From the NCBI GenBank assembly GCA_024518585.1, contig JANIHI010000002.1:1-64000 (forward strand): a stretch of 64,000 bases of DNA, written 5' to 3'. Position numbers and translations under genes: made by a program. Positions within the stretch are counted from its first letter, which is position 1; the number at the start of each line of letters is the position of its first letter. Of the stretch, positions 4,744-61,853 are shown in pieces. The stretch is from Methanolinea sp. Its GTDB lineage: Archaea; Halobacteriota; Methanomicrobia; Methanomicrobiales; Methanospirillaceae. The notes under the pieces are model-generated. The model ran no database searches. It saw nothing but the letters and a program-made list of their open reading frames with translations, and had not been told where the DNA came from.

Positions 4744-4847
4744 GGGGCGCCGTTTTGGGGGCGGCGGAACTATCCTCATATGAGGGTGCGAGGGCGAGGC
4801 AGCCCCCACTTTGGTTCCCGTCCACCCATTCAAAATAGCGAAGAGCC
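4744..4847 (+). repeat. About 104-bp dispersed repeat, copy 1 (inverted copy 36949-37052)
   Basis: The stretch from GGGGCGCC through a run of GC-rich sequence to CAAAATAGCGAAGAGCC is closely matched by the reverse complement of 36949-37052. Copy 1 ends exactly where the epimerase fragment begins; copy 2 interrupts a hepT gene. It has no obvious coding capacity. Confidence 0.85.
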
Positions 4848-58896: not shown

Positions 58897-60522
58897 TCAG
58901 AGCGCTGCTTCGGGGGTCTTGCCCGGAGAGGAAACACCGCCCTCCTCGGGTGGCATGGCACTCAGCACCTCGGGTACTGTTCCCATGGCCACGATCTTTC
59001 CCCCCCTCATCCAGGCAACGCGGTCACACAGCTCCCGGACAAAGTCCATGTCATGGGAGACCACGATGAAAGTCTGGTCCATCTCCTGGCGGGCGTGGAG
59101 GATGGAGTGCTTGACGTCCCTCTTGGTGAGCGGGTCCATTGTGCCGGTCGGCTCATCCAGGATCACCATGCGGGGTTCGCGGATCAGGACCTGGGCCAGG
59201 GCAACCCTGTGCCTCTCCCCCTCGGAGAGCTGGTCAGGGTACTTGGAGAGGATGTCCCCGCTCACCTTCTCCGAAAATCCGGCCATCGCAAGGGTGATCC
59301 TGGCCTTCCTGACAGCGAGTTCCTTGGGGAACTCGAGCCCGATTGCATCGGTGAGGTTGTCAAGGACCGTGCGGTGGGGGTAGAGGTCATACTCCTGGTG
59401 GAGGAGGCCGATGTATCCCTTTGCCCTGCCGCGGTTCTCGATGCCTGGTTTTGTCATGTCGACCCACTCCTCACCGACCAGGAAATTCATCTCGCCAGCC
59501 GTCGGCTCGATGATACCGGCGATGATGCGGGAGAGCGTGGTCTTTCCTGCCCCGCTCTTCCCGATGATCCCAAAGATCTCCCCCCGGTTTACCTTGAACG
59601 AGACACCATTGACCGCCCGGATCAACCCCCTGTCGGCCGACATGTAGCGCTTGGCAACGTCCCGCGCCACCAGGATCTCCTCGCCGAAGGTAAGGGGAGA
59701 TTCGTCCTCGTCGCGTGAATAGTCCCGCAGAAAATGGGATATGACGTCCTTTGGAGCCCCTATCTTCTCGATCCGGCCCTCTTCGAGGAGGATTGCGCGT
59801 GCAGCAGTGTCCTCGATGACCCTGGAGAAGTGCGATGTAATAACAATACCCATCCCCGAGCTCTTCGAGGCCGAAAGGAGCATCTGGTGCACGACGTCTG
59901 CGGTCTGGGGGTCGAGGGTGCCGGTCGGTTCGTCGGCAAAGAGGAGGAGAGGATCGCGCGCGAGCTGCCGGGCGAGTACCACCCGCTGTTTCTCGCCACC
60001 CGAGAGGTCGCGGGCGATGTGCATCATCCGGTGCGAGAGCCGGACCTGGTCCAGGAGGTCTGCCGCCCGGTTGATCGCACCCTCCCCGTAGTTGACATCG
60101 TCAAGGGCGCGCAGGACGTTTTCGATGACACGGTCATCCCCGTAGAGGGCAAACGTCCTCTGGAACATGATAGCGGTGCGCCGCATTATGGACTTCTTCA
60201 GACCCTCGTTTTCCGGTCTCCAGAAGTCCACGTCTGCCTTTGCGAGGGTCGTTCCGCAGCGCGGACAGGGTTTACCAGCATCGCTTTGCAGGCGTACGTT
60301 CGAACAGTCCGGGCACAGGCTCACGTGGTAAACGACTGCACCTGCTGTCGGGGGGTCTTCCACCCCCCGGAGGAGGTGGATGAGAACGCTCTTTCCTGCG
60401 CCACTGCGCCCGATGATCCCCATGGTCTCGCCCTCGTATATCTCGAAAGAGAGGTTATCGAGGACTTTTTTTCCCGAGTATTCCATGGAGAGGTTCCGGA
60501 CCGAAATAAACGGGTGGTTCAT
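58897..60522 (-). CDS. atwA: Methyl-coenzyme M reductase system component A2
   Basis: A 541-residue twin ABC ATPase (from ATG 60522). Domain 1: Walker A GRSGAGKSVLIHLL, signature LSGGEKQRVVLARQLA, Walker B LLLFADEPTG. Domain 2: GKSGAGKTTLSRIIAG, LSEGERHRVALAQVL, MVILDEPTG. Between Walker A and the Q-loop of domain 1 lies a zinc-type insert (CPDCSNV ... CPRCGTT). AtwA uses ATP to activate the nickel cofactor F430 of methyl-CoM reductase. Earlier in-frame ATGs at 60591, 60561 and 60537 are possible. A palindrome CTCATATGAG lies just downstream of its TATA box. Confidence 0.92.
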   Translation of the reverse strand: MNHPFISVRNLSMEYSGKKVLDNLSFEIYEGETMGIIGRSGAGKSVLIHLLRGVEDPPTAGAVVYHVSLCPDCSNVRLQSDAGKPCPRCGTTLAKADVDFWRPENEGLKKSIMRRTAIMFQRTFALYGDDRVIENVLRALDDVNYGEGAINRAADLLDQVRLSHRMMHIARDLSGGEKQRVVLARQLARDPLLLFADEPTGTLDPQTADVVHQMLLSASKSSGMGIVITSHFSRVIEDTAARAILLEEGRIEKIGAPKDVISHFLRDYSRDEDESPLTFGEEILVARDVAKRYMSADRGLIRAVNGVSFKVNRGEIFGIIGKSGAGKTTLSRIIAGIIEPTAGEMNFLVGEEWVDMTKPGIENRGRAKGYIGLLHQEYDLYPHRTVLDNLTDAIGLEFPKELAVRKARITLAMAGFSEKVSGDILSKYPDQLSEGERHRVALAQVLIREPRMVILDEPTGTMDPLTKRDVKHSILHARQEMDQTFIVVSHDMDFVRELCDRVAWMRGGKIVAMGTVPEVLSAMPPEEGGVSSPGKTPEAAL

Positions 60523-60620
60523 GACATCCTCACGCATTTTTTCTGGGGTGCGGTCCCGCATGAATGCCCGAAAAAATATTCCGGTATGCAAGACAGGCCC
60601 GGCGAAACCCTCTATTATTT

Positions 60621-60630
60621 CTCATATGAG
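60621..60630. promoter_or_regulatory. Palindrome CTCATATGAG in the atwA promoter
   Basis: A 10-bp perfect palindrome, preceded by ATTT, lies between the TATA element (60637-60644 on the minus strand) and the gene, over the expected transcription start. The same ATTTCTCATATGAG occurs at 61772-61785 before the DUF5320 gene. Confidence 0.5.
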
Positions 60631-60636
60631 TAGAAT

Positions 60637-60644
60637 GGTATAAA
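60637..60644 (-). promoter_or_regulatory. TATA box of atwA
   Basis: TTTATACC on the minus strand, about 46-53 bases before an in-frame ATG at 60591 and 115 before ATG 60522. Confidence 0.45.
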
Positions 60645-60708
60645 CCTGTTGAATTTGTGCGGGAAGGGATTTATAGCAGATATCAAGTAAAAAAGGATGA
60701 AAACAGGT

Positions 60709-61083
60709 TCAGGCTTCCTGCAGGCCCCTGCGGCATCTCCGCGGGCAGTTTCCCTGTTCCCTGCGGGGGCATTTATCTATGCGGAGGCACTTGCCGGTTG
60801 TCAGGGCCTCGGCAACCTTCCTTCGTGCGGTATGCAGATCCCTCCAGACGGTTCTCCGGGAGACCCCGAGGACGGCGGCAGCCTCCTCCTGTTCGAGTCC
60901 CTCGAGATCGATGAGGCGGAGGAGTTCCACCTCTTCGGGAAGGAGCGTGATGGGACGGCCACCCTCGTCCGGTGCGCACTCAGGAATAAAACACCAGGTG
61001 GATGTGGTCTCTCCCAGTACACGTGGCATCCTTGGCCTCCCCCGCCTCCGGTTGGGGCTCCCCGCAAGAACGTCTGTCGACAT
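60709..61083 (-). CDS. DUF134-family putative DNA-binding protein
   Basis: A 124-residue protein. Residues 45-90 form a sigma-like helix-turn-helix (LLPEEVELLRLIDLEGLEQE, EAAAVLGVSRRTVWRDLHTA). The N-terminal RRRGRPRMPRVLG and the Cys-rich end (CLRIDKCPRREQGNCPRRC) fit DUF134 proteins, small regulators often found beside nitrogenase-cofactor-type or DUF5320 proteins. The Cys residues could bind a metal. The start is uncertain. Confidence 0.75.
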   Translation of the reverse strand: MSTDVLAGSPNRRRGRPRMPRVLGETTSTWCFIPECAPDEGGRPITLLPEEVELLRLIDLEGLEQEEAAAVLGVSRRTVWRDLHTARRKVAEALTTGKCLRIDKCPRREQGNCPRRCRRGLQEA

Positions 61084-61193
61084 GATCCCGTGCTCTTTCT
61101 TTGGTCTCTGCCAATATGATGTTAATCTTTGGGTGATGGGCCGGGATTATATGGCCAGGCCTGCAGGAACTCCGGTTCTGATGGAGTGACCTG

Positions 61194-61412
61194 TCAGATC
61201 TCGCCCGTCTCCCTCATCAGCCGGACGATGTCGAGGTACCGGTCAGGCTCCTCGCGGAAAATCTTTCTCCGGGACGACCGGGACCGCTGTCTCTCCCGTG
61301 CTATCTGGAGAGCCGTCCGGAGGGGAATCGACCGTGCGTGTGGTCCGGCTGCAGACTGGTGAACGAAAAGGGAGGAAGGATTGTTGTTCTTCCTCTGCAT
61401 GTCGTCGGACAT
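61194..61412 (-). CDS. Small basic protein beside DUF134 and DUF5320 genes
   Basis: A 72-residue protein from ATG 61412: MSDDMQRKNNNPSSLFVHQS, then a basic helix (IPLRTALQIARERQRSRSSR) and REEPDRYLDIVRLMRETGEI. No family recognised. It lies on the same strand 46 bases after the DUF5320 gene. The upstream in-frame extension is antisense-like and Pro/Gly-rich, so the shorter start is preferred. Confidence 0.5.
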   Translation of the reverse strand: MSDDMQRKNNNPSSLFVHQSAAGPHARSIPLRTALQIARERQRSRSSRRKIFREEPDRYLDIVRLMRETGEI

Positions 61413-61458
61413 GGTATCACCCGTTTTTCCTGTGAGAGGCCGGGTAGGACTCTCTCGT

Positions 61459-61740
61459 TCACCAGAAAAAGCGCCAGCAGCGCCCTCTTCCAAACCCCCT
61501 GCCGCACCCCCAGGGGATGCCGCCACGGCCACGGCCATACACGACGGGGTAACCCCGTGGGGCCGCGGTCCCTGCAGGACCCTGGCCGGGTGGCACCTGC
61601 GTGCCCTGTTCTGCTGGCTGGGCAGCCTGCTGCTGTGCCTGCGGGGGAACGGGAGCAACACCGAAAGGCCTGCAGCGCCCCATCCCCCATCCTGTCATCG
61701 GTCCCCTCCCGAGGGGACCGGTTCCGTCAAGTCCTGGCAT
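61459..61740 (-). CDS. DUF5320 family Gly-rich protein
   Basis: A 93-residue protein. It begins MPGLDGTGPLGRGPMTGWGM (the DUF5320 signature), continues with a Gln/Pro-rich middle and ends with Gly/Arg/Trp-rich GRGRGGIPWGCGRGFGRGRC. Such proteins are often next to NifX/NifB-type (dinitrogenase iron-molybdenum cofactor-like) and DUF134 genes. Function unknown; metal or cluster binding is suspected. ATG 61740 fits the family start. Confidence 0.8.
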   Translation of the reverse strand: MPGLDGTGPLGRGPMTGWGMGRCRPFGVAPVPPQAQQQAAQPAEQGTQVPPGQGPAGTAAPRGYPVVYGRGRGGIPWGCGRGFGRGRCWRFFW

Positions 61741-61775
61741 ATTTTTTAGCCTCCTGTGCTCACGCACATATATTT

Positions 61776-61785
61776 CTCATATGAG
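61776..61785. promoter_or_regulatory. Palindrome CTCATATGAG before the DUF5320 gene
   Basis: A second copy of the palindrome found before atwA, again directly downstream of a TATA-like sequence (minus-strand TATTTATG at 61786-61793) and about 36 bases before ATG 61740. Confidence 0.5.
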
Positions 61786-61853
61786 CATAAATACATCAAA
61801 CTGACGGAAGGGGCAGGCAGCAATCCCAACCGGTGGCGCCGGCATTTTTCCCC

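Follow-up and report, generated by a model that had tools for sequence, protein, structure and literature searches.

The window analysed here is a 64,000-nucleotide stretch of a Methanolinea sp. assembly (GCA_024518585.1, contig JANIHI010000002.1, positions 1 to 64,000). Between positions 58,897 and 61,800 it carries a gene for an AtwA protein, a gene for a DUF134 protein and a gene for a DUF5320 protein, together with two copies of a palindromic element, as follows.

58897-60522, minus strand: atwA2, the DUF134-linked gene for MCR system component A2, its start assigned to the ATG that follows GTGAGGATGTC (60591 in the longest frame)
60612-60644, minus strand: candidate operator and TATA of this second atwA, TTTATACC-n-TACTCATATGAGAAATAATAG
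60621-60630, no strand: palindromic core CTCATATGAG of the candidate atwA operator, at a position conserved in genus-mates
60709-61083, minus strand: gene for the DUF134 (PF02001) helix-turn-helix protein, a candidate regulator, with cysteines C31, C36, C105 and C113
61459-61740, minus strand: gene for a DUF5320 protein of 93 amino acids with a Gly/Arg/aromatic tail, its start assigned to the ATG of MPGLDGTGP
61767-61800, minus strand: candidate operator and TATA-like stretch of the DUF5320 gene
61776-61785, no strand: palindromic core CTCATATGAG of the candidate DUF5320 operator

AtwA is the ATPase of the MCR activation complex, and the window gene matched TIGR03269 (component A2) with 823.7 bits against a cut-off of 517.1. 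The DUF134 (UPF0251) protein matched PF02001 with 70.2 bits and the DUF5320 protein matched PF17253 with 32.4 bits, the cut-off being 27 in both cases. A short minus-strand frame at 61194-61430 (LRTALQIARERQRSRSSRRKIFREEP), which has a counterpart in G008, lies between the DUF5320 and DUF134 genes.

A sequence-only reading of this DNA had described a 14-mer, ATTTCTCATATGAG, directly downstream of the minus-strand TATA box in two promoters. We found the repeat at exactly 60617-60630 and 61772-61785, each copy preceded by a TATA-like stretch on the minus strand (TTTATACC at 60637-60644 and TTTGATGTATTTATG at 61786-61800); the 14-mer did not arise in any of 100 dinucleotide shuffles of the window. 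The full assembly (G000; 1,777,328 bases in 27 contigs, 96.5% complete) held just two exact copies, both in the window. Its 10-base core, CTCATATGAG, occurred at six places in the genome, four of them upstream of the genes that we refer to as the module; another, at C1:21423, lies inside a frame that is open across the whole 3 kb examined, and another, at window position 4775, falls in GC-rich DNA within a 116-codon open stretch. When one mismatch was allowed, the core was found three times in the window against 1.4 expected and was not clearly rarer than chance, so the evidence for the site comes from the longer match and from conservation. We searched the genome with a longer pattern of the element at up to three mismatches and obtained four places (window 60614-60636 and 61769-61791, C9:8098-8120 and C21:7067-7090), all upstream of module genes, and none with the reversed control.

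These four places precede the window atwA, the DUF5320 gene, an operon of one NifX-type and two MinD-type genes, and a NifX gene beside mcrA. Behind the C21 site come a PF02579 gene and a pair of MinD-type genes; the product of the second is 83% identical to its counterpart in a genus-mate, and each of the two MinD-type proteins has two Fer4 stretches. On C9, the site precedes a 39-codon DUF5320-like frame, perhaps a remnant, and then NifX1, directly behind mcrA (L066 3489-7748). This mcrA was identified by Pfam (MCR_alpha), and the genes upstream of it resemble mcrG, C, D and B by eye. The same order of mcrA, site, DUF5320 and NifX1 was observed in G005, G011 and G004. G000 contains only two PF02579 genes at E 0.001, and each of them lies behind a site.

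Among 41 related genomes, the 15-mer CTCATATGAGAAATA was present in 11, all of which belong to the 13-genome genus. Scanning this genus with TTTAT-n9-CTCATATGAG at up to two mismatches, we found both sites, 1.0 to 1.2 kb apart, in 11 of the 13 genomes, the exceptions being G001 and G006. Upstream of atwA, TTTAT-n5-TCTACTCATATGAGAAATA is kept in genus-mates while the neighbouring DNA drifts. In G007, the atwA site has diverged to CTCTTATGAGACATA, and the DUF5320 frame behind the other site has an internal stop. The existence of just two exact copies of the 14-mer in the genome could suggest chance or recently duplicated sequences without function, but each site is kept in those 11 genomes, the element recurs across families, and the DNA flanking the two window copies is dissimilar; we reject this explanation as having almost no likelihood. 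Other sequences were discarded along the way. Variants of CTCCTATGAG in genus-mates (L047, L048 and L068) look like a reversed ribosome-binding site before ATG, and, among the exact matches to ACTCATATGAGT, those of L071, L072, L074-L080, L082, L091, L092 and L094 looked by eye to be coding or without a promoter setting.

In its general form, the putative operator reads approximately TRCnCATATGnGYA-ATAAT with AT flanks and directly follows a TATA-like stretch; each window site departs from TRCnCATATGnGYA at one base, with A for Y. We collected 60 stretches of DNA surrounding DUF134 genes in six families (f1-f6), a few genomes contributing two. With at most one mismatch and within 260 bp upstream, the core was found before 28 of 32 DUF5320 genes (recognised by an N-terminal DNA pattern rather than by Pfam), 15 of 30 NifX2 genes and 14 of 22 atwA genes, versus none of the 32, 30 and 22 gene-interior controls. 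NifX1, which mostly comes second behind DUF5320, had the core upstream in 3 of 29 cases. A set of 111 distinct sites with at most one mismatch to the 14-mer, in which some loci were included twice under two names, covered 65 of 71 DUF5320, 51 of 67 atwA and 29 of 49 NifX2 genes. That the core carries high information in this set does not count as evidence, since it served to select the sites; their unselected flanks showed a TATA-like TTAWATATTTA before the core and ATAAT after it. The distance from site to start was 29 to 54 bases for DUF5320 (with one case of 97), 24 to 41 for NifX2 and 26 to 214 for atwA, the last range being less firm because atwA starts are less certain. If the usual archaeal TATA-to-start spacing applies, the dyad would sit at about -18 to -5 relative to the transcription start.

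Across the phylum, a strict form of the site was found in 39 of 83 genomes inside Methanomicrobiales versus 3 of 309 outside, which denotes rarity outside the order rather than absence, as this form finds under half of the order and 1 of 8 genomes in the genus. Sites before a NifX-NifX-MinD-MinD-DUF134 arrangement in Methanomassiliicoccaceae and Methanomethylophilaceae assemblies (L321 and L280) are possible binning errors and were given no weight. Judged by these sequence comparisons, a conserved operator and regulon of Methanomicrobiales are very likely, and the earlier idea of an operator shared by two promoters and placed directly after TATA has strong comparative support across genus and order.

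Several further frames were observed near sites. In Methanoregula (L326 4287-4523; also L298, L322 and L260), a small Cys/His-rich frame lies behind a site and upstream of DUF134; the one in L326 had no Pfam match. At L081 1501 (G018:C35:6586), a promoter-like site is followed, after about 180 bases, by a 148-codon frame of a different type (MDKPVKIGIIICDRYRTCAGGKC...), which is a possible further target. In L296, a one-mismatch site lies about 100 bp ahead of an Mrp/NBP35-type gene (PF10609, 297 bits), perhaps a further regulon member in this relative; between this Mrp gene and mcrA there is a frame that by eye resembles radical SAM/SPASM.

We then turned to the linkage between the site and DUF134. 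The strict form WTRCnCATATGnGYAW was present in 47 of 80 DUF134 loci, versus 0.1 expected from 10 block shuffles of each; the loci were the best 80 of at least 353 DUF134 relatives and were picked regardless of the site. When every one of the 63 alternative palindromic hexamers was tried in place of CATATG, only two loci in total were found. The remaining 33 loci lacked a strict site in the flanks examined and were counted against the linkage, although the strict form undercounts, missing even the window's own two sites (A for Y). DUF134 often sits after the NifX/MinD/MinD operon, and the site partners near it vary: atwA in some genera, NifX/MinD in others and mcr genes in some. The gene mcrA lay within the stretch in 7 of the 60 and in 9 of the 80 DUF134 loci. 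A distance of about 1 kb separates DUF134 from mcrA/mcrG in a Methanocella assembly (L328, 23-316 and 1304-3745), where no strict site was seen.

The window atwA is not the sole general copy of its genome: another lies at C1:69405-70994 and is 70% identical to it. Scoring atwA promoters with TRCnCATATGnGYA, we found the putative operator at up to one mismatch upstream of 16 of 21 DUF134-linked copies versus 0 of 40 others, and at up to two mismatches upstream of 18 of 21 versus 2 of 40. Among the three remaining linked copies, those of L138 and L148 lie directly behind NifX1, and that of L186 has a three-mismatch form. The strict site was absent from all 40 other-atwA loci. In a tree of 61 atwA copies, those at DUF134 loci split from the others with two label changes, a number as low in none of 500 shuffles; this separation does not establish one common origin of the linked copies. 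In family f1, two or more atwA copies were counted by hand in 48 of 66 DUF134-positive versus 1 of 9 DUF134-negative genomes. No other MCR activation gene was observed behind a site. The link between atwA and DUF5320 that had been read from the window holds insofar as both genes share the putative operator; it involves a second copy of atwA, and the regulon is wider than these two genes. Upstream of other atwA copies (L332-L334, L338, L341, L343, L345, L348, L349, L355, L357 and L359), we noted a different conserved stretch, approximately AAAAGGTAATATG...CACATTA, possibly a further element of promoter or operator type.

These results bear on the possibility that the palindrome is a variant of the core promoter (TATA/initiator) read by general factors. 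Its position abutting a TATA-like stretch, with ATAAT where transcription may start, would suit such a role. Yet in G000 the long pattern marks four places, all before one gene set, the signal vanishes when CATATG is swapped for other palindromes, and atwA copies away from DUF134 have no site, its presence tracking DUF134. We consider a core-promoter role very unlikely and, in view of the genome counts, controls and conservation, reject it.

Co-occurrence of DUF134 and the site was assessed in 199 genomes of the order, of which 156 contained PF02001 and 149 the long pattern. The pattern was found in 138 of 156 DUF134-positive versus 11 of 43 DUF134-negative genomes (Fisher 3e-15), and in 109 of 118 versus 4 of 14 among genomes at least 90% complete (Fisher p 2e-7); both tests ignore phylogeny and treat genomes that are not independent. 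The reversed control of the three-mismatch pattern was found in 50 of 199 genomes, 42 of them DUF134-positive, and gave 73 rows versus 550 match rows, near-palindromic sites often being scored on both strands in these row counts. As for the four DUF134-negative exceptions of at least 90% completeness, G106 carries its site close to the end of a contig, and a single match with two or three mismatches was found in each of G117, G043 and G101. PF02579 genes are absent from seven of eight DUF134-lacking genomes (G016, G117, G171, G033, G043, G039, G026 and G101); the exception, G101, retains a single one that has no site. Module members are gained and lost together, so co-occurrence cannot single out DUF134 as the binder.

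This leaves room for a different, unlinked protein that binds the operator, with DUF134 a passenger of the module having another task. The core was found upstream of DUF134 itself in none of 61 cases (up to one mismatch, 260 bp), the interior control giving 7 of 61 where the stretch overruns the short gene into the next promoter, and a DUF134 without a site of its own fits the passenger role, as does its loss together with PF02579. Against this, DUF134 is the regulator-like gene noticed beside the sites while their partners change, and a helix-turn-helix protein fits a palindrome. We regard an unlinked binder as improbable. The proposal of DUF134 as candidate regulator, already made from the window, gains strong comparative support from the 47 of 80 loci, the co-occurrence and the atwA comparison, and DUF134 is likely the regulator of the operon set and a putative binder of the dyad.

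We aligned 39 of 66 DUF134 sequences, leaving out near-copies, the short L103, L114, L137, L149 and L190, and some divergent sequences (including L157-L161). RGRPR, the helix-turn-helix, C31, C105 and C113 were invariant, and C36 was conserved in at least 90%. All four cysteines, which may hold a cluster or metal, were complete in 54 of the 66 sequences; the set was incomplete or absent in the five short sequences, L156-L160, L166 and L188. They are not needed for the site, since L157 and L160 lack the full set and still have sites. The five short sequences represent a type with a QPTFHRL helix and without the cysteine pattern; we did not see NifX genes beside L137, L149 and L190, and a DUF5320-like frame lies near L190. 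The structure model of DUF134 was confident at about residues 41-100 (block means 86-97), a region that contains the helix-turn-helix, and poor elsewhere. Region 4 domains of sigma factors were its nearest solved folds, with a best E of 0.03 and none under 0.001. A search of PDB sequences with the DUF134 profile gave eight matches, all designed TIM barrels by name, which were disregarded.

We propose that the palindrome serves as operator for a regulon conserved in Methanomicrobiales, with DUF134 as its most likely regulator, repressing an Fe-S-type module together with a spare AtwA; we hold this reading as a whole to be probable. A DUF134 dimer with a sigma-70-region-4-like helix-turn-helix would bind the half-sites TRCnCAT/ATGnGYA. 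Repression is the probable sign of regulation, because the site lies between TATA and transcription start, where bound DUF134 would block polymerase loading. The repressed set would comprise the spare AtwA, a NifX-like gene with two genes for [4Fe-4S]-motif MinD-type ATPases behind it, and the gene of the Gly/Arg-rich DUF5320 protein, often with a second NifX-like gene (NifX1) next in line. This module would store or deliver Fe-S and, following iron, sulfur or redox stress, would help MCR to resume activity; we consider both an Fe-S or redox signal and a part in re-activating MCR plausible.

More tentatively, and with the odds rather against it, DUF134 might itself be an Fe-S/redox-sensing repressor that couples the iron-sulfur pool to methanogenesis. 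When clusters are short or damaged, it would release a split storage/delivery module resembling IssA and ORP (see below) along with the spare AtwA, and these would let cluster-dependent MCR activation restart. This coupling would extend to the pair of targets next to mcrA in Methanolinea and to the mcr genes found close to DUF134 in several genera. Cysteines are not present in every DUF134 with nearby sites, which lowers our confidence both in this sensing role and in the regulon proposed above.

A passage of PMC7565180 mentions DUF134 and DUF5320, but only among function-unknown proteins in which a quadruplex-binding motif is possible. MCR makes nearly all biological methane (PMC12176620). 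Among the open-licence PMC papers listed on these two families, on NifX with AtwA and on palindromes of methanogen regulons, no title or abstract opening dealt with the regulon. With the present analysis, DUF134, so far a function-unknown family, gains a probable operator, a target set and a physiological field, and the AtwA, NifX-like, MinD-like and DUF5320 proteins gain a common regulatory context. A duplicated, separately switched AtwA would offer a direct handle on the control of MCR activation.

Finally, we compared the putative regulon with known systems. Tfx of Methanothermobacter is likewise a methanogen helix-turn-helix protein and was reported to bind near a promoter; in contrast, DUF134 matched no Tfx family among the seven Pfam families found at E 0.001. 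In the ORP system of Desulfovibrio, Orp3 and Orp4 are MinD-type ATPases. They carry two [4Fe-4S] motifs each, Orp8 consists of a single Di-Nase (NifX-type) domain, the ORP genes form a cluster under dedicated control, and MrpORP passes on Fe-S clusters (PMC6345978). Similarly, we found the ORP-type core of a NifX-type (PF02579) gene beside two ferredoxin-motif MinD/ParA-type genes, complete in G000:C21. ORP differs in having sigma-54 promoters with a cognate regulator, versus a TATA promoter and a CATATG dyad near DUF134 here, and DUF5320 and atwA are not ORP components.

The thioferrate storage protein IssA of Pyrococcus furiosus combines a NifX-type domain (IPR003731) with a Gly-rich cationic aromatic tail that has 15 Gly, 14 aromatic and 7 cationic residues out of 70 and a pI of 10.7 (PMC5524996). 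The last 50 residues of 43 DUF5320 proteins contained on average 27% Gly, 16% Arg+Lys and 8% aromatic residues, as calculated without a composition control; these tails resemble that of IssA by composition, with the same pI of 10.7, but have fewer aromatics. Moreover, the tail-like DUF5320 and the NifX-like domain, whose PDB relatives (searched with NifX1) include MTH1175 and PH0822, are encoded by separate genes here rather than fused in one chain. Two IssA homologs were increased in FeS2-grown Methanococcus voltae (PMC8516115). In the MCR activation complex, cluster density suggests [8Fe-9S-C], probably made with NifB (PMC12176620); the window gene encodes a full component A2 like that of the complex and differs in being a second copy with a putative operator of its own. 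By analogy, the likenesses to ORP, IssA, FeS2 growth and the MCR cluster together point to Fe-S storage or delivery as the likeliest theme of the module.
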